Assembly: GCF_026130045.1 (NCBI RefSeq)
Contig: NZ_JAIBNX010000003.1
Location: forward strand, 62,001-126,000
Origin: Micromonospora sp. CPCC 205371
GTDB taxonomy: Bacteria > Actinomycetota > Actinomycetes > Mycobacteriales > Micromonosporaceae
DNA: 64,000 nucleotides
Direction of reading: 5' to 3'
Shown here piece by piece: positions 9,120 to 38,851 of the stretch. Position 1 is the first letter of the stretch. Each line of letters starts with the position of its first letter. The translations under genes were made by a program, and so were the position numbers. Under the pieces are notes generated by a model. That model was given only the letters and a program-made list of their open reading frames with translations, was not told where the DNA came from and ran no database searches.

Positions 9120-10747
9120 GACGATGCCTCCATGGGCACGGCCGCAGTGTCGGCAGTGGACGATGGGTCGGGTGTGGCCGACGGGTCGGCCGCGAGGGCG
9201 GCGCGCAGCGACGGCGCGGCGTACAGCAGCGCGCGGGCTGCCGGCGATTGCGGATCAGTGAGCACGGCCTCCGCGGTGTCGTACTCGCGGATATGTCCGT
9301 CTTCGAGGACGGCGACGGTGTCGGCGAACCGGCGGACCAGGCCGAGGTCGTGGGTGATGAACACGACGGCGAGCCCGTCGTCGCGGCGCAGTTCGTCGAG
9401 CAGGTCGAGGATGCCTTCGGCCACGGTGGGGTCGAGCGCCGAGGTGATCTCGTCGCAGACCAGCACCCGCGGCCGGGCGGCCAGGGCTCGGGCGATGGCG
9501 GCCCGCTGCCGTTCGCCGCCGGACAGCTGCGCGGGCCTACGGCGGGCGAGGTCGGCGCCGAGCCCCACCCGGTGCAGCAGCTCGACGGCGCGCGTGGTGG
9601 CCTGCCGCCGGGGCATGCCGTGCAGCAGCCGCAGCGGTCTGCCTACCGCAGCGTCGATGCGGCGGCGGGGGTTCAGCGACCCGTACGGGTCCTGCGGGAT
9701 GAGCTGCAACCAACCACGTTGAGCGCGGCTGCGCCGCCCAGCGGTCGGTGCCAGGATCTGCTCGGCGACGCGGATGTGACCGCTGGTGGGGTAGTGCAGG
9801 CCGACCAGGCAGCGGGCCAGGGTGGACTTGCCAGATCCGCTGGCACCGACCAGGGCGAGCGCTTCACCCGGCCGTGCCCGCAAGCAGACGTCGTGGAGGA
9901 CATTCCCGTGCCCGTACCCGGCGCCGAGGCCGTCCACGCTGAGCGCCGCGGCATCGGCGGCCGGTGGGGTGCGCGCGCGGTGGGCGCGCGGATCCGGGTA
10001 CGCGTCGACCAGCCGGCGAGTGTAGGGGTGCGCCGGGCTGCGCAGCGTCTGCCGGCTCTCTCCAGTCTCCACGGGCCGCCCGTTCCGCAGGACGACGATC
10101 CGATTGGCGAGCCGGGCGACCAGGTCAAGGTCGTGGCTGATGACCAGCAGGGCGAAGCGTTGCTCGCGGTGCAGCCGGTCCAGTTCGGCGATCACCAGCG
10201 CCCGGGTACCGTAGTCCAGCCGGCTGGTCGGCTCGTCCAGCACCACCAGCCGCGGCTGCGGTGCCAGGGCGCGGGCCAGTGCGAGGCGCTGCTGCTGCCC
10301 GCCGGACAATTCGGCCGGCAGCCGCCGCAGAAACTCGGCGTCGGTGGGAAGGCCGACGCTTGCGAGGCGGCGGCGCACCGTGTCGTGGTCGCGTTGGGCG
10401 GGGTCCAGCAGCTCACTGACCTGTTGGTCGACCCGCATCGTAGGGGTGAGCGTGGCCGCCGGGTCCTGCCCGAGCCAGGCCGTGTGCTCGCGACGCAGCC
10501 GTCGGCGCGTCCGCTCCGGCAGCGCGAACACGTCCTGTTCGCACAGCCGCACCCGGCCGGCGGACAGGTGCAGGCCGGGTCGGATGATGCCCAGTCCGGC
10601 GAGGGCCAGTGTGGTCTTGCCGGCGCCGGACTCGCCGACGACTCCGACCCGTTCCCCGGACCCGACGTGCAGCGTGATGCCGTCGACGACGGGCCGGCCG
10701 CCCGGTCCGGTGACCCGCAGGTCGGTGATCTCCAGCGGCGTGGTCAT
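9116..10747 (-). CDS. Double ATP-binding protein of a dipeptide/nickel-type ABC importer
   Basis: 543 residues made of two complete ATPase domains in one chain (DppD-DppF fusion type). The first has GESGAGKT, LSGGQQQR and VLDEPTS; the second has GASGSGKS, LSGGERQ and CDEITSALD. It energises the two permeases encoded immediately upstream. Four-base overlaps on both sides show coupled translation. Such fused ATPases occur with oligopeptide, nickel and opine-metallophore importers. The C-terminal ~25 residues are low-complexity Ala/Ser/Thr. Confidence 0.88.
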   Translation of the reverse strand: MTTPLEITDLRVTGPGGRPVVDGITLHVGSGERVGVVGESGAGKTTLALAGLGIIRPGLHLSAGRVRLCEQDVFALPERTRRRLRREHTAWLGQDPAATLTPTMRVDQQVSELLDPAQRDHDTVRRRLASVGLPTDAEFLRRLPAELSGGQQQRLALARALAPQPRLVVLDEPTSRLDYGTRALVIAELDRLHREQRFALLVISHDLDLVARLANRIVVLRNGRPVETGESRQTLRSPAHPYTRRLVDAYPDPRAHRARTPPAADAAALSVDGLGAGYGHGNVLHDVCLRARPGEALALVGASGSGKSTLARCLVGLHYPTSGHIRVAEQILAPTAGRRSRAQRGWLQLIPQDPYGSLNPRRRIDAAVGRPLRLLHGMPRRQATTRAVELLHRVGLGADLARRRPAQLSGGERQRAAIARALAARPRVLVCDEITSALDPTVAEGILDLLDELRRDDGLAVVFITHDLGLVRRFADTVAVLEDGHIREYDTAEAVLTDPQSPAARALLYAAPSLRAALAADPSATPDPSSTADTAAVPMEASS

Positions 10748-11559
10748 CGGTCACCCCGCAGCCGGCCGGCGAGACGGTCGGCGAGGAGGTTCACCGAGAC
10801 GGTGAACGCCACGATGCACAATCCGGGGGCGAGCAGGGCGGCGGGGTTCAGGCTGCCGCCGTCGGCGTTCTGCGCCACCATCGTCGCCCAGTTCGGCCCG
10901 CCGACCGGTGCGAAACCGAGGAAGCTCAGCGAGGCCACCAGGTACACCGAGCCGACCAGCCGAAGGCCGGCGTCGGTCAGGATCGGACCGGCCAGGACCG
11001 GCACCAGTTCCCGGGTAAGGATGGCGGTGCGCCGCTCGCCGACCGCGATGGCGTGCTCGATGTAGCCGCTGTGCGCCACGCGCGCGGTCGCGGCGCGCAG
11101 GTAGCGGACGCTGCCTGGCACACCGAGCAGGCCGATCACCGCGACAATCAGCGCCGCCGGTGCCCGCGAACCGACGACGATCAGCAGCACCAGCAGCGGG
11201 GGCAGCACCAGCAGCAGCTCGCTGCCGCGCAGCACGAGCCGGCTGCCCCGCCCGGACCGCCAGCCGGTCAGCAGCCCCAACGGGACGGCGACCAGGCTGC
11301 CCAGCGCCACCGCCAGGACCGGCACGAGCACCACCCCGCGTGCCCCAGTCAGCAGCCCGGAGACCACGTCCCGGCCTAGGTGGTCGGTGCCCAGCGGCAG
11401 GCCGGTCCGGGCCGGCTCGTACGGAATACCGACGATCGCATCGACGCGGTGCGGCGCGAGATGCGGACCGGCCAGCGTGAGCGCCGCTGCCAGCAGCGTC
11501 GGCGTGGCCACCAGTGCCAGGCCGACGATCCGTAGCCGCCGCGTCAGGATCCGCGTCAC
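10744..11559 (-). CDS. ABC importer permease (DppC/NikC type)
   Basis: 271 residues, five to six membrane helices. The N-terminal part carries the family motif LGTDHLGRDV near residue 56. The EAA loop region lies near VGERRTAILTRELVP, followed by SFLGFAPV, typical of DppC-type subunits. It forms the membrane channel with the permease encoded just upstream. Overlaps of four bases on both sides. Confidence 0.88.
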   Translation of the reverse strand: MTRILTRRLRIVGLALVATPTLLAAALTLAGPHLAPHRVDAIVGIPYEPARTGLPLGTDHLGRDVVSGLLTGARGVVLVPVLAVALGSLVAVPLGLLTGWRSGRGSRLVLRGSELLLVLPPLLVLLIVVGSRAPAALIVAVIGLLGVPGSVRYLRAATARVAHSGYIEHAIAVGERRTAILTRELVPVLAGPILTDAGLRLVGSVYLVASLSFLGFAPVGGPNWATMVAQNADGGSLNPAALLAPGLCIVAFTVSVNLLADRLAGRLRGDR

Positions 11560-12539
11560 CGCAGCCTCCCCAGCGCGGGCCTCATCGGTACCGCCCGCCC
11601 CGGACAGGACCGGTCCTGGATCAGCTCGGCGACCAGGAACCCGGCGATCGCGACGGCGGCGAGGACCAGGCCGGCCGCTTCGACCTGGACCGCGTCGCGG
11701 GCCCGGACCGCACTGGCCAGCAACGCCCCCAGCCCCGGATACGCGAACACCGTCTCCACGACCAGCGCCCCGCCGACCAGGTACGGCACCAGCAGCGCCA
11801 GCACCTGCGCGATGGAGCCCGCCGCCGACGGCAGGACGTGCCGGCGCAGCACCAGGTGCTCCGGCAGCCCGGCGATCCGGGCCGCCTCGACGTGCGGGCC
11901 GGCCGCAATGTCGGCGACGATGCCGCGCACCATCCGGGCGGTGTACGCGCCCCCGTACAGGGCCAGCGACGCGACCGGCAGCACCAGGATCGCCGGCTGC
12001 GACAACGGCCCGCTCCCTGGTGCCACCAGCGACACCGCCGGCAGCCAGCCCAGGGCGAACGCGAAGACCGCGACCAACACGGTGGCGAGGGCGAACTCCG
12101 GCACCGCGGTCAGTGTCAGCGTCACCGCCGAGACCGCGCGGTCGCGTCCGCTGCCCGGACGCGCCCCGGCGAACAGGCCGAAACCGACACCGAGCACGGC
12201 GATCAGCACGAACGCGGCAGCCGCGAGGACCACGCTGTTGCCGGCCCGTTCGGCGACGATCGGCCCGACCGGGACCCGGGTGACCGCACTGGTGCCGAAG
12301 TCCCCGCGCAGCACCCCACCCAGCCAGCGCAGGTACTGCTCGGCCACCGGCGCGTCCAACCCGAGCTGCGCCCGCAGCTGCGCGCCCCGCTCCGGGGTGT
12401 AGGTGCTACCCAGCGCCTGGGTGACCGGGTCCCCGGGCAGCACCTGCACCGCCACGAACAGCACCACGCTCACCGCCAGCAGCAGCGCCACGGCACCGGC
12501 CACCAGGCGCAGCGCCCGTCCCGGCGTGGGAACGCGCAT
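11556..12539 (-). CDS. ABC importer permease (DppB/NikB type)
   Basis: 327 residues from the ATG at 12539, which overlaps the TGA of the binding-protein gene by one base (TGATG). The frame stays open further upstream, but that part lies inside the previous gene. The start is a membrane helix with LPGDPVTQALG, then the EAA-type loop ARIAGLPEHLVLRRHVLP, then VETVFAYPGLGALL, all typical of DppB. Partner of the following DppC-type permease. Confidence 0.88.
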   Translation of the reverse strand: MRVPTPGRALRLVAGAVALLLAVSVVLFVAVQVLPGDPVTQALGSTYTPERGAQLRAQLGLDAPVAEQYLRWLGGVLRGDFGTSAVTRVPVGPIVAERAGNSVVLAAAAFVLIAVLGVGFGLFAGARPGSGRDRAVSAVTLTLTAVPEFALATVLVAVFAFALGWLPAVSLVAPGSGPLSQPAILVLPVASLALYGGAYTARMVRGIVADIAAGPHVEAARIAGLPEHLVLRRHVLPSAAGSIAQVLALLVPYLVGGALVVETVFAYPGLGALLASAVRARDAVQVEAAGLVLAAVAIAGFLVAELIQDRSCPGRAVPMRPALGRLR

Positions 12540-36117: not shown

Positions 36118-37191
36118 GTGGATGGTCGGCTGGGTGAGGATGCCCGCCGCTGTATCTTCCTTCATCCAGCCGACGACGGTCTGGTAGACGGTGTCGTAGC
36201 CCTCCGTGCAAAGAACCTTGTGGATGGGGCCGGGCCCGATGCCGTTGAGGTTACGGGCAGGGTCGGCGACGAGCTGCCGCATCCTCTTGCGCGGGTGGAC
36301 CTGATCGCGGCGCCGACCGGGGTCATGCTCGCCACGGCCCAGCCCGAAACCGACGTCGTCGGTGACCGGGTTATGACGATCCACGCCCCGTACGCTCTGG
36401 ACAAGGCGATGCTGCTCAATGCGATCGTCGAGATCCTCGGCGGCCGGGCGATCTTAAGGCACGGCGGCCCTCGTGGCGGCCGGGTGATGCACGTCTTTGG
36501 CATGCAGTCCGACCTGGAGCGCATCGACCTGCTCTTCACCTCGCTCCTTGTTCAGATCGGCCGGTTCATCGCCCGGGCGCGGCCCTGGCTGGGCGAGAAC
36601 CTCAAGGTGTTCAAGCGGGACTGGCTTGCCGGCTTCACCCGCACCGTCCGCGCCCGGCTCGCCGAGGTCGAGCGCCGCACCCGAAACGAGGTTCAGGAGG
36701 AGCGGGACGCGGCCAACGTGAGCGGCCCGTCGGTCGCGCTCGTCCTCGCCGACCGTCGCGACCAGGTCTCGCGGGCCTACGCCGCCGCCCACCCAAACGC
36801 CCGCGCCGCCGTCCGTCGACGGCTCGCCGGGCACGGCTACCACCAGGGCGTCGACGCCGGCAACCGGGCCGACCTCGGCGGCACACGCCCCCGTACGCCA
36901 TTGCGAGATCTGCGTGCACCGGATTCTGCGTTTCGCCTGCATACTCGTCACGTCCACCGAGGGGCATGGGAAGACGCAGACCGAAAAGACTGTTGCACTC
37001 ATTGGGCGCATCCACCTACCGTGTCCTTCAACAGATTCACCACCGAGCCAGGGAGCACGAAGATGTTGTGGCACGCCACGTTCGAACCGCAGCGGTCACC
37101 GCTGTGCGGTTCCGCAGGCCTACCCAACGTCGGGCGACCCTCCGATCTGACCGCCAGCGAGAAGCCGAACCAGGGCAGGCGGCGAACGTAA
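36118..37191 (+). CDS. DUF2786-family protein with abnormal ends
   Basis: The core (about 36290-36900) matches DUF2786 proteins: TDVVGDRVMTIHAPYALDKA, ERIDLLFTSLLVQ, KRDWLAGFTRTVRARL, VALVLADRRDQVSRAY and the terminal GYHQGVDAGNRADLGGTR. These proteins are common on actinomycete plasmids, phages and tRNA-bearing islands; function unknown. The usual N-terminal helical DUF2786 motif is missing or out of frame (residues 1-55 look unrelated). The C-terminus runs ~85 residues past the normal end as low-quality sequence. It may be a decaying gene; a start near 36290 is possible. Confidence 0.55.
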   Translation: MDGRLGEDARRCIFLHPADDGLVDGVVALRAKNLVDGAGPDAVEVTGRVGDELPHPLARVDLIAAPTGVMLATAQPETDVVGDRVMTIHAPYALDKAMLLNAIVEILGGRAILRHGGPRGGRVMHVFGMQSDLERIDLLFTSLLVQIGRFIARARPWLGENLKVFKRDWLAGFTRTVRARLAEVERRTRNEVQEERDAANVSGPSVALVLADRRDQVSRAYAAAHPNARAAVRRRLAGHGYHQGVDAGNRADLGGTRPRTPLRDLRAPDSAFRLHTRHVHRGAWEDADRKDCCTHWAHPPTVSFNRFTTEPGSTKMLWHATFEPQRSPLCGSAGLPNVGRPSDLTASEKPNQGRRRT

Positions 37192-37213: not shown

Positions 37214-37248
37214 GCCGCCCACCCAGACCAGGGGATCGGGCGGCTTTT
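37214..37248 (+). terminator. Rho-independent terminator before the tRNA array
   Basis: GCCGCCC (37214-37220) pairs with GGGCGGC (37238-37244), followed by TTTTC. It closes the DUF2786 transcription unit just ahead of tRNA-Trp. Confidence 0.7.
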
Positions 37249-37270: not shown

Positions 37271-37344
37271 AGGGGCGTGGCGCAACAGGTAGTCGCGGCG
37301 GTCTCCAAAACCGCAGGTTGTAGGTTCGAGCCCTGTCACCCCTG
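37271..37344 (+). tRNA. tRNA-Trp (CCA)
   Basis: The anticodon arm is GCGGT-CTCCAAA-ACCGC and the T arm GTAGG-TTCGAGC-CCTGT. The acceptor AGGGGCG/CACCCCT has one C-A mismatch. The D arm is degenerate compared with a housekeeping tRNA-Trp. It lies outside the inverted repeats that flank the rest of the array. Confidence 0.85.
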
Positions 37345-37390
37345 CTTTGCCCTGCGCATTTTCGCGCGGAATGGCATTGATAGTTGAGAA

Positions 37391-37408
37391 TTCCACAGTG
37401 GATGGCAT
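37391..37408 (+). repeat. Left 18-bp inverted repeat of the tRNA/HNH array
   Basis: TTCCACAGTGGATGGCAT; its exact inverse complement occurs at 38714-38731. The inner part TCCAC-A-GTGGA is itself palindromic. Confidence 0.75.
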
Positions 37409-37452
37409 TACGAAGCCCGGCGGTCGCCGAAGATTGGTGGCGGCCGGGCATT

Positions 37453-37525
37453 CGGGAACGACCGGCACGGTGACCGGGCCTGGTTTGGGACCAGGACGCA
37501 GCGCGTTCGACTCGCGCGTTCCCGA
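37453..37525 (+). tRNA. tRNA-Pro (UGG)
   Basis: Acceptor CGGGAAC/GTTCCCG perfect; D stem CCGG/CCGG; anticodon arm CCTGG-TTTGGGA-CCAGG; T arm GCGCG-TTCGACT-CGCGC. No CCA encoded. All stems pair, so it should fold normally. Confidence 0.92.
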
Positions 37526-37530
37526 CGCAC

Positions 37531-37602
37531 GGGCCGCACGTCACCGGTGTGCGGGGATGCTCGGCAGGCATCTCGGGAGGGGTTCGACACCCCTGCGGTC
37601 CA
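37531..37602 (+). tRNA. tRNA-Ala-like (GGC), unusual C33
   Basis: Acceptor GGGCCGC/GCGGTCC pairs with one G-U; T arm AGGGG-TTCGACA-CCCCT is perfect; anticodon stem GATGC/GCATC is perfect with loop TCGGCAG, giving GGC for Ala. Position 33 is C instead of the near-universal U, and the D arm is irregular. It may be a decayed or phage-type tRNA. Confidence 0.6.
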
Positions 37603-37603
37603 C

Positions 37604-37632
37604 GCACGGGTTCGAGTCCCCGCTACCGCTCG
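37604..37632 (+). other. Orphan T-arm-like sequence
   Basis: GGG-TTCGAGT-CCC with flanking CCGCTACCGC looks like the 3' end of a tRNA, but no matching 5' half with a complementary acceptor is present. Read as a tRNA remnant. Confidence 0.4.
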
Positions 37633-37637
37633 ACGTT

Positions 37638-37715
37638 CCGGGGCGCGGTGTTTGGCAGCCGCGACGGGACTCTGGACCCCCGGAACAGACGCAGGTTCGA
37701 TTCCTGCACCCCGAG
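37638..37715 (+). tRNA. tRNA-Gln-like (CUG), degenerate
   Basis: The T arm GCAGG-TTCGATT-CCTGC is perfect; the 3' end ACCCCGA-G is followed by an encoded CCA (37716-37718). The loop CTCTGGA gives anticodon CTG. The anticodon stem and 5' acceptor pair only partly, as if a base or two were lost. It may be non-functional; a better tRNA-Gln lies at 38415. Confidence 0.5.
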
Positions 37716-37719
37716 CCAT

Positions 37720-37792
37720 GCCGAGGTAGCCCAACGGGAGAGGCAGCCGGCTCAAACCCGGTACAGCGCGGGTTCGACCCCCGCTCTCGGCA
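37720..37792 (+). tRNA. tRNA with CAA anticodon (Leu) but short variable loop
   Basis: Acceptor GCCGAGG/TCTCGGC, anticodon arm GCCGG-CTCAAAC-CCGGT, T arm GCGGG-TTCGACC-CCCGC. The anticodon CAA reads UUG (Leu), but the variable loop is only ~5 nt, whereas bacterial tRNA-Leu normally has a long variable arm. Which synthetase charges it is therefore uncertain. Confidence 0.75.
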
Positions 37793-37814
37793 CGCATGCC
37801 GTCGTAGCTCACGT

Positions 37815-37887
37815 GCGGACGTGGCGCAGCTGGTAGCGCGTCACCTTGCCACGGTGAAGGCCGCGGGTTCGAACCCCGCCGTCCGCT
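37815..37887 (+). tRNA. tRNA-Gly (GCC)
   Basis: Acceptor GCGGACG/CGTCCGC, D stem GCGC/GCGC, anticodon arm TCACC-TTGCCAC-GGTGA, T arm GCGGG-TTCGAAC-CCCGC, all perfect. CCA is encoded at 37888-37890. Best-formed tRNA of the array. Confidence 0.95.
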
Positions 37888-37932
37888 CCAACAATTCCCA
37901 CCGGCCATCACGACCAGCAGAGGAGGTATCCG

Positions 37933-38373
37933 GTGGACGTCTTGGTCATCAACGCCGACCTCGGCCCGCTCCACCGGGTCAGTCTCCGCCACGCCGTACG
38001 GATGCTCGTGCGGAGGGTCGCCGAGGTTCACGAAGCACACCCAGACCGGGTGATCGGCGTCTACCCGATCCCGACGGTCGTGCGGCTGGTCCGGTACGTG
38101 GTCACCCGCTGGCGGTACAACTGCGGGCCGGCATGGTCGCGTCCCGGCGTGCTGGTCCGCGACGAGCGGGTGTGCGGCTACTGCGGCGCTCACGCCACCA
38201 CCGTCGACCACATCCTGCCCCGCTCCCGCGGCGGCAAGAACTCCTGGCTCAACACGATCGCGGCCTGTGGCGGCTGCAATCAGCGCAAGGGCGACCGCAC
38301 CCCGGCCGAGGCCGGCATGCGGTTGCGGTTCGAGCCGACCGCCCCGTCGTGGGCGGCGCTCGTAGCGCGCTGA
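37933..38373 (+). CDS. HNH endonuclease
   Basis: 146 residues. GTG start at 37933 follows AGGAGG. The beta-beta-alpha-metal nuclease motif reads CGYCGAHATTVDHILPRSRGG, then NTIAACGGCNQRKGDRTP, with CxxC pairs binding zinc and His in VDHI as the catalytic residue. The N-terminus (VLVINADLGPLHRVS) is that of the stand-alone HNH family found in actinophages and on actinobacterial tRNA-rich islands. It sits in the middle of the tRNA array inside the inverted repeats. It may cut DNA at defined sites and help the cassette move, by analogy with homing nucleases; that is inference. Confidence 0.9.
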   Translation: MDVLVINADLGPLHRVSLRHAVRMLVRRVAEVHEAHPDRVIGVYPIPTVVRLVRYVVTRWRYNCGPAWSRPGVLVRDERVCGYCGAHATTVDHILPRSRGGKNSWLNTIAACGGCNQRKGDRTPAEAGMRLRFEPTAPSWAALVAR

Positions 38374-38414
38374 TGGTGCGGCCGGCGGCAACTCTCTCGC
38401 CCGCCGGCCGCCTT

Positions 38415-38486
38415 TGGGAGCTGATGTAACCGGCAGCATGGTTGCCTCTGAAGCAGCTCGTCCAGGTTCGAATCCTGGGCTCCCAG
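38415..38486 (+). tRNA. tRNA-Gln (CUG)
   Basis: Acceptor TGGGAGC/GCTCCCA perfect, D stem ATGT/GCAT near-perfect, anticodon arm GTTGC-CTCTGAA-GCAGC, T arm CCAGG-TTCGAAT-CCTGG perfect. No CCA encoded. Confidence 0.92.
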
Positions 38487-38498
38487 CGACATGTCCTA

Positions 38499-38569
38499 GG
38501 GGCCGGCCTGGTTATAGAGCGCTGGTCCTACAAACCGAGGGCTTGCAGGTTCGAGTCCTGCCGCGGTCA
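38499..38569 (+). tRNA. tRNA-Val-like (UAC), degenerate acceptor
   Basis: T arm GCAGG-TTCGAGT-CCTGC perfect. The anticodon loop CCTACAA in a TGGT/ACCG stem gives anticodon TAC (Val), with C at position 33. The acceptor GGCCGGC/CGCGGTC has two mismatches and the exact 5' end is uncertain. Confidence 0.5.
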
Positions 38570-38626
38570 CCCCGCGGGCGCGCCACCGACGGTGAGGTGG
38601 GGCCGAATCCAGCCGTGGGCACGCAT

Positions 38627-38711
38627 GGCCTCGCGGAAGCTCCGGGTGGAGCTGGCCGCCTGCAAAGCGGTTCCCGTTAAGGGTCCTCCCGTTCGACTCG
38701 GGGCGAGGTCT
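38627..38711 (+). tRNA. tRNA-Cys (GCA) with a long variable arm
   Basis: Acceptor GGCCTCG/CGAGGTC, D arm AGCTC/GAGCT, anticodon arm CCGC-CTGCAAA-GCGG, T arm TCCCG-TTCGACT-CGGGG. The variable region forms its own stem-loop (CCCGTTAAGGG), which is unusual for Cys. It lies 2 bp from the right inverted repeat. Confidence 0.7.
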
Positions 38712-38713
38712 CG

Positions 38714-38731
38714 ATGCCATCCACTGTGGAA
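38714..38731 (-). repeat. Right 18-bp inverted repeat of the tRNA/HNH array
   Basis: ATGCCATCCACTGTGGAA, exact inverse of 37391-37408. The pair encloses 1.3 kb with eight tRNA or tRNA-like genes and the HNH gene. Confidence 0.75.
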
Positions 38732-38851
38732 CATCGTGAGCGCGGGCGTTGGCTGCCCGGCTGCCGGCGGCCGTTGAGGTGACCGTCGGCACGTAGAGCG
38801 CTATCAGCTCGGCGGCTCTGGCTCATCCGCTGTCCAGGTACGGGATACGCG

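Follow-up and report, generated by a model that had tools for sequence, protein, structure and literature searches.

Dense arrays of tRNA genes are widespread on phages and plasmids, where their role is debated, and a tRNA array unit is commonly expected to hold at least about 20 tRNAs. In the parts of two accounts of mycobacterial plasmid and phage arrays that were considered here (PMC5966550, PMC12803027), such units are defined by a density of at least 2 tRNAs per kb (PMC5966550) and are already known to contain HNH genes; leader, promoter, terminator and antitermination are not mentioned in either main text. The array described here lies in a stretch of 64,000 nucleotides (nt) from Micromonospora sp. 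CPCC 205371 (contig NZ_JAIBNX010000003.1, positions 62,001 to 126,000), hereafter the window. It shares with those units, as far as these excerpts describe them, the densely packed tRNAs and the embedded HNH gene, while its tRNA order is different. As a tRNA array unit it is of a kind already known. An rRNA-type leader with a closing helix and an attenuator-like Trp leader, both reported below, were not found described: among the literature matches listed, none dealt with rRNA-type leaders or attenuators of tRNA arrays, although subscription journals were thinly covered and absence from print is unproven.

CRISPR arrays are among the units that are regulated by boxA. Excerpts of a further report (PMC5725501) add suhB and a toxin-antitoxin system as cases of boxA regulation outside rRNA, and its main text does not mention tRNA. 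In all these cases, as in the array proposed here, an rRNA-type signal is placed on a non-rRNA unit. The rRNA signals themselves are best compared through E. coli, in which boxA recruits the Nus complex and boxC lies in the leader strand of a leader-trailer helix; boxC is nearly invariant, wobble changes keep the pairing, and pairing outweighs sequence (PMC10250234, in part). In mycobacteria, boxA, boxB and boxC sit in the rRNA leader and spacer (PMC5676007, in part).

We propose, with a probability of roughly 0.8, that the inverted repeat bounding the window array is a feature of RNA and not of DNA mobility, and that the array is wrapped in the manner of a pre-rRNA, by a leader of boxA/boxC type and a leader-trailer helix. 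The pairing of the array flanks and their resemblance to rRNA are strongly supported. Computation shows where the repeats lie in many arrays and how these are oriented, the compensatory and wobble changes, the resemblance to leaders and trailers of rRNA, and the arrangement of open reading frame (ORF), hairpin and antiterminator arm. The repeat, TTCCACAGTGGATGGCAT, is a perfect 18-bp inverted repeat at 37391-37408 (+) and 38714-38731 (-), with 1305 nt between its arms. When up to 3 mismatches were allowed, the window contained 2 such sites and 100 shuffles contained none, and the 9.36-Mb draft genome (481 contigs) holds 2 exact copies, both flanking this array. Searches of the window, the shuffles and the whole genome thereby bear out an earlier note on this DNA, which had reported such a repeat around tRNAs and an HNH gene.

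The exact 18-mer was found in 13 of 354 Micromonosporaceae genomes and a 15-base degenerate form, YTCCACAGYGGATGR, in 162, compared with 9 for the reversed control. Loci were sampled by motif (13 + 40 + 40), and 14 named family loci were added via HNH. Left out of the array set were 6 duplicate loci, 32 with fewer than 3 tRNAs and 4 that had no left copy by rule, among them L039, although another view shows one there; 20 later loci added 6 arrays, used in attenuator counts only. The set contains 67 arrays with a left copy before the first inner tRNA. A right copy (core, 0-2 mismatches) was detected in 57 of these, and in 51 with 0-1 mismatches. It lies 5-230 nt behind the last detected tRNA (median 9; no more than 13 nt in 38 of the 57), and the longer gaps may hide undetected tRNAs. 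Where the motif occurs with no array (29 loci), 2 loci have a partner with 0-1 mismatches, and one of these resembles a decayed array. Since the repeat recurs around other arrays, it marks a true unit boundary; the genome search that the earlier note had suggested thus found the repeat flanking other family arrays, and not scattered as the stray palindrome which that note had considered. The surroundings recur as well: in 30 of 57 arrays the final tRNA ahead of the right copy is tRNA-Cys, 13 of 57 have tRNA-Met behind the right copy, and 33 of 67 have a same-strand tRNA-Trp shortly ahead of the left copy.

Pairing was evaluated in 56 distinct left/right pairs (L172 was left out as a duplicate). 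Copies of the same array paired at -35.36 kcal/mol, compared with -30.61 for swapped copies, and none of 5000 permutations was as low. With one array for each of 14 genera, the labels being assigned by hand, the values were -34.8 and -31.2 kcal/mol, and the advantage was also present inside the two most variable genera. Changes on both sides were observed in two genera each at positions 8 and 14, in Catelliglobosispora at 12 and 13, in Virgisporangium at 15, and in both Virgisporangium and Catellatospora at 16. In register, 91.8% of 1008 cells paired, and 29-48% when the copies were slid. Transitional mismatches at positions 1-15, a range picked after the outer positions were seen to vary freely, were wobble-compatible (G-U kept) in 34 cases and not in 9, or 17 and 4 when collapsed by genus. 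At several positions the left copy hardly changes while the right copy drifts. When a 1376-nt RNA from the window is folded, the left/right helix closes its minimum-energy structure. The window unit shows complementary flanks under pairing selection, as in an rRNA-type leader-trailer helix. Taken as sequences, the left and right copies appear to diverge largely as the strands of an RNA stem would.

Directly before the left copy, the arrays carry the heptamer TTGAGAA or a variant of it. The 16S leader of the same genome contains TTTGAGAACTCAACAG, and its 23S leader contains TTTGAGATTTGCATAGTGGACGCG, a variant of the form found in relatives; that form, TTGAGAAYTRCACAGTGGACGCG, precedes 23S in 16 of 20 spacer loci (relatives and own genome). 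A partner strand was located about 3.1 kb on, behind 23S, in all seven rRNA operons analysed, with a narrow lead at L209 (score 28, next site 22); at L211 no 16S trailer was found. Because the array leaders resemble rRNA leaders that have partner strands behind the rRNA, the array unit has pre-rRNA-like leader and trailer strands. The 5' strand of the window unit is boxA/boxC-like by its similarity to the 16S and 23S leaders of its own genome and of relatives; reading the heptamer region as boxA/boxC is our interpretation, by analogy with mycobacterial signals (PMC5676007, in part) and with earlier work. As in the described helix (PMC10250234, in part), a conserved leader includes a boxC-like strand that would pair with a trailer 0.6-3.9 kb away, and the array strands are closely similar to the family's own 23S leader and trailer. 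In contrast to it, the array helix encloses tRNAs, in about half of the arrays together with a protein gene, and measures about 18 bp instead of 25-40 bp. As the window helix encloses tRNAs and the HNH gene and neither 16S nor 23S rRNA, the unit probably works like an rRNA-type leader-trailer helix without being one.

Several observations count against this interpretation. Own and swapped pairs had equal energy in four other genera with at least 3 arrays, and related arrays are not independent. Over positions 0-17, 39 transitions were wobble-compatible and 27 were not, a weaker ratio because the outer positions are loose, and 56 changes were transversions; positions 1-15 alone hold 18 transversions, besides 8 A/G mismatches and one wrong-way C/T (L256), and 13 transversions remain after collapsing by genus. 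The duplex of the antisense strands is barely weaker (-34.89 kcal/mol), the sense duplex being better in 32 of 56 pairs. In ten of the 67 arrays, a right copy with 2 mismatches or fewer is missing. No right copy is visible in the small arrays L151, L154 and L165, in which a tRNA already begins where the left copy ends, 5-7 nt past the core. The heptamer is variable (TTGACAA, TTGAAAA, TTGTCAA, TTGGCAA, TTCTCAA) and similar to a -35 box, and the patterns found the 23S leader of G084 neither in 3 spacer loci nor in L213.

The features of the array and of the region upstream are as follows, all on the plus strand.

36993..37022 (+), putative promoter-like pair TTGCAC-18-TACCGT, with -35/-10 read by eye
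37050..37055 (+), ribosome-binding-like AGGGAG, from the sequence
37063..37191 (+), leader ORF of 42 codons, MLWHATFEPQRSPLCGSAGLPNVGRPSDLTASEKPNQGRRRT, from tblastn relatives, position and the Shine-Dalgarno (SD) plus ATG rule
37178..37184 (+), GGCGGCG where the leader ORF ends, a putative antiterminator arm, by pairing to the terminator 5' arm
37214..37248 (+), intrinsic-terminator-like hairpin GCCGCCC...GGGCGGC-TTTT, recurring before most arrays
37271..37345 (+), tRNA-Trp(cca), the first gene, outside the helix (ARAGORN)
37384..37390 (+), TTGAGAA, rRNA-leader heptamer (boxA/boxC-like region), by rRNA leader comparison
37391..37408 (+), left copy, predicted 5' strand of the leader-trailer helix (repeat search, pairing, fold)
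37453..37526 (+), tRNA-Pro(tgg) (ARAGORN)
37509..37603 (+), degenerate tRNA, called Gly(acc) by ARAGORN (Rfam 37530-37602, below threshold)
37639..37716 (+), Gln-like tRNA remnant, by eye, with no ARAGORN call
37720..37793 (+), tRNA-Leu(caa) (ARAGORN, Rfam)
37815..37890 (+), tRNA-Gly(gcc) (ARAGORN, Rfam)
37933..38373 (+), HNH endonuclease gene (PF14279 6e-13, PF01844 4e-12)
38415..38487 (+), tRNA-Gln(ctg) (ARAGORN, Rfam)
38500..38571 (+), tRNA-like remnant, by eye
38627..38711 (+), Cys-like tRNA remnant, by eye; Cys is often the last tRNA in relatives' arrays
38714..38731 (+), right copy, predicted 3' strand (trailer) of the helix (repeat search, pairing, fold)
38737..38810 (+), probable decayed tRNA-Met slot, by-eye similarity; Met is found there in some relatives

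ARAGORN called six tRNAs in the window, Trp outside the repeat and five inside it (Pro, the odd Gly(acc), Leu, Gly and Gln), and Rfam placed three tRNAs of the array interior above threshold and two below. About three further tRNA-like stretches inside the repeat (near 37639-37716, 38500-38571 and 38627-38711) were recognised by eye only. The eight tRNAs counted in the earlier note are a plausible number if decayed genes are included, with five called inside by ARAGORN. Five ARAGORN tRNAs in 1.34 kb exceed the density of a tRNA array unit; two same-genus arrays contain 28 (L045) and 34 (L293) inner tRNAs and the collected set 3-30, and the window array looks like a reduced unit. An HNH gene was detected in 34 of the 67 arrays, always on the tRNA strand and 20 times between Gly(gcc) and Gln(ctg). 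None was detected in the other 33, and since these keep the repeats, HNH is not needed for them. The 16 relatives matched by the HNH protein were mostly from Catellatospora, Virgisporangium, Rugosimonospora, Actinoplanes and the like, genera that we take to be Micromonosporaceae, and two were metagenome-assembled genomes (MAGs), one of Chloroflexi and one of Eubacteriales.

Leader-peptide attenuators are known from the trp type and, in actinobacteria, from the whiB7 leader. Upstream of tRNA-Trp, the window has an ORF and a hairpin in the geometry of such an attenuator, as judged from the sequence, with all the parts predicted: a leader ORF, regulatory codons, a terminator and an antiterminator arm. 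Like the known leaders, it combines a short ORF that has a ribosome-binding site and Trp codons, a T-run hairpin shortly behind the stop, and an ORF end complementary to a hairpin arm; unlike them, it would control tRNA genes and not a biosynthetic or resistance gene. The window ORF has a single Trp codon, at position 3, and an Arg-rich end. Eight same-genus arrays share the promoter-like pair, the short ORF and the GC hairpin with T-run before tRNA-Trp (L248 being without Trp); the promoter-like sequence TTG..C-18-TACC[GT]T could be aligned in these eight loci, three of which are from one genome, and the ORF keeps a recognisable LCG..GMP sequence within the genus. The short C-terminal matches of the longer ORF 36118-37191 beside same-genus arrays are this small leader ORF, in frame with the preceding gene.

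Across the family, tblastn found ORFs like the window leader before 18 of 75 arrays (the window counted), and a terminator-like hairpin precedes 70 of 75, or 68 under stricter folding. By a rule that ignores GGYGG, an SD+ATG ORF of 20-60 codons ending 6-30 nt before the hairpin was found in 53 of these 68 arrays, compared with 1.1% of 2720 shuffles. A Trp codon occurs in 51 of the 53 leader ORFs (52% of 29 shuffled ORFs), and in 46 of 53 the stretch that pairs best with the 5' arm of the terminator lies at least partly in the last 8 codons (shuffles: 24%). The GGYGG element is present in 59 of 68 arrays, compared with 30% in shuffles. In a pass guided by it, the frame was open with a stop within seven codons in 48 of 59 arrays (14 and 6 for the other frames), and all 48 leaders, of which that of L299 looks wrong-frame, contain Trp; it lies among the last five residues in 36 of them and within residues 2-5 in 26. 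Trp makes up 4.3% of their residues, against 2.4% and 1.1% in the other frames. The 11 arrays not accepted comprised eight of the genus Catellatospora, L136, L144 and L018, the last too long by the start rule. The antiterminator count of this pass (47 of 48) is partly circular, as the ORFs were located through GGYGG; the rule could favour the overlap, and the test was therefore repeated without it, as given above. The first gene behind the leader is tRNA-Trp in about half of the arrays, and Catellatospora arrays mostly have no leader ORF.

In the reading of the earlier note, the repeats bound a tRNA cassette that is mobile or invertible; a recombinase or the HNH enzyme might then move or flip it. 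The perfect repeats at both ends of the unit would suit such an element, as would the three arrays that genome G321 holds on separate contigs or places and the arrays on two contigs of IMG/VR. None of the 33 arrays flanked by tRNA-Trp was flipped, however; all lie on the Trp strand, the other 34 carry no such marker, and the choice of arrays required a left copy that precedes the tRNAs. Inside the 67 arrays no minus-strand tRNA was seen, and one (Arg, L169) lies near an end. By eye there was no target-site duplication, the bases just outside the two window copies being different; in a scan covering part of the ORFs, no recombinase or transposase was recognised inside the window unit, and HNH was its sole protein gene found. 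HNH was also not detected in 33 of the 67 arrays, the tRNAs for Trp and Met are found close outside the repeats, at similar spacing, and the drift of the core is largely wobble-compatible. The cassette was rejected on orientation, drift pattern and flanks, and we consider it very improbable. Hardly better placed are two operators (TCCACAGYGGA is nearly palindromic) for a DNA-looping repressor, the left one between TTGACA as -35 and an AT-rich -10, an idea prompted by the -35-like heptamer. In many arrays TTGACA or TTGAGA does stand directly before the left copy, with AT-rich bases behind it. T1 of the left half-site, however, is C in 18 of 56 right copies while the mirror A11 is never G, and a symmetric dimer site should treat both alike; moreover, the right copy has no TTGACA context, and nearly the same sequence precedes 23S rRNA. 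A symmetric DNA operator was set aside on this asymmetry and on the rRNA match, and appears quite improbable.

It could also be that the left copy is a boxA-type antitermination signal whose pairing with the right copy is incidental, a leftover of an rRNA-derived origin. All six mycobacterial plasmid loci described below have the leader, and only three have a right copy behind the last tRNA (10-11 bp), for which sites outside the arrays score equal or higher as partner. Within Micromonosporaceae, however, the both-side changes in several genera point to continued pairing selection, and we regard incidental pairing as improbable, if somewhat less so than the operators. A more serious contender, though still rather unlikely, concerns the upstream region alone: the hairpin may just terminate the gene before it and the short ORF encode a small functional protein, with no attenuation. 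Any upstream gene needs a terminator, and the ORF sequence is recognisable within the genus (LCG..GMP). Yet in most family arrays the ORF is followed by the hairpin and then by tRNA-Trp or the left copy, no more than 18 of 75 leaders can be recognised from their sequence, and the stop-to-hairpin distance, Trp content and antiterminator position are far above shuffles. Further points count against the proposed upstream control. Between 36900 and 39000, a strict sigma-70 scan found no promoter, and a terminator scan (loop limit 3-8) omits the hairpin. Seven of 75 arrays gave no strict hairpin, the leader ORF is absent in 15 of 68, and those of L144 and L156 are without Trp. A Trp codon close to the end of the ORF may be no more than a by-product of the GGUGG that pairing requires.

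Outside the family, six loci on mycobacterial plasmids, of which two are near-identical and one has a degenerate motif, carry a leader of the TTTGAGAACTNCACAGTGG type shortly ahead of the first tRNA, of the form TTTGA[GC]A..T.CA[CT]AGTGGTGGCAT. The right copy is visible behind the last tRNA in three of them, and sites elsewhere score as high. On plasmid pCBMA213_1, a related leader lies 255 nt before the first tRNA. An attenuator leader of the Micromonosporaceae type was not seen in the six loci, in which the conserved upstream region differs: in L127, L128, L130, L132, L270 and L271 it reads CTTCCGGT...GCCGGAAGC, then CAGGAACGTC..TGACATTCCTGT, about 150-330 nt before the leader, and looks structured by eye. 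In a class-wide scan of 296 genomes (3 of the family) with the Micromonosporaceae-type motif, the genome of the window was the sole match. The 15-mer gave 80 loci in IMG/VR with no tRNA within 400 nt, which are thus probably chance matches; a longer motif gave 8 loci, of which 2 are arrays, and the mycobacterial-type motif gave none. The contigs of these two arrays (L265 and L266, 106 and 112 kb) show the same Trp-leader-array layout, with helicase- and DNA-polymerase-exonuclease-like genes near one and an endonuclease VII-like gene near the other. Near its genome end, Mycobacterium phage Kumao (L269) has a 19-nt exact match to the mycobacterial array leader in an unannotated stretch (E 0.8), which may be chance; 26 Mycobacterium phage records had matches to this leader at E up to 10.

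Among the surroundings of the arrays, ORF 36118-37191 upstream of the window array matches phrog_421 (function unknown) over residues 86-254 (1.6e-19), and the adjoining DNA may thus be phage-like. In the genus Catellatospora, several arrays (L023, L025, L026, L027, L029, L172, L173) lie 0.6-5.9 kb after a same-strand tRNA-Ile/tRNA-Ala pair, with their tRNAs in similar order, which gives the impression of a long stay in the chromosome. The same-genus genome G321 has at least 3 arrays with leader (L293, L296 and L248, with 34, 7 and 11 inner tRNAs), and at about 7930 of L145 (G014) there is a complete TTGACAACTCCACAGTGGATG leader with neither array nor partner, perhaps the remnant of a lost array. 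Clustering the neighbour genes of 26 arrays gave mostly clusters within one genus, plus a TROVE/Ro60-like gene about 0.1-1 kb behind 4 of the 26 (L041 at 10509-12095 (+), L035, L046 and L248, in sense-frame clusters). Its identity was given by PF05731 (2.9e-17) in a profile run on L041 only, and in L036 and L037 a TROVE-like signal came by motif or antisense-frame matches only. Ro60 binds Y RNAs, and the window has a sub-threshold Rfam match to YrlA at 38511-38622.

For the pre-rRNA-like unit, we infer the following course. Transcription would start upstream, pass the short leader ORF and the terminator-like hairpin, and run through tRNA-Trp into TTGAGAA and the left-copy leader, so that both copies would lie in one RNA. 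By analogy with rRNA, Nus factors would load at the leader, making RNA polymerase processive over the untranslated array, and would retain the leader RNA until the right copy has emerged. Left and right copy could then pair into an 18-bp helix closing off the array for processing by RNase III, RNase P and others, with RNase III presumably cleaving the helix. If the leader ORF is translated to its stop, the terminator would form; a ribosome delayed in the ORF would free the GGYGGC end to pair with the terminator arm, turning the tRNAs on, and shortage of tRNAs, especially of Trp-tRNA, may thus induce the array.

The earlier note had also thought that the tRNAs might help an element when host tRNAs are cut, and the attenuator-like leader upstream makes this more plausible. 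We suggest, tentatively and at somewhat under even odds, that actinobacterial arrays of the phage and plasmid type are inducible spare-tRNA operons, in which a Trp leader senses shortage, for example through tRNA-cleaving toxins or defence nucleases, and lifts termination, while a borrowed rRNA cassette drives fast, complete transcription and processing. If so, the arrays would use the host's rRNA control system together with a built-in shortage sensor, the anti-defence idea would become directly testable, and rRNA-type leader-trailer packaging would extend to tRNA operons.

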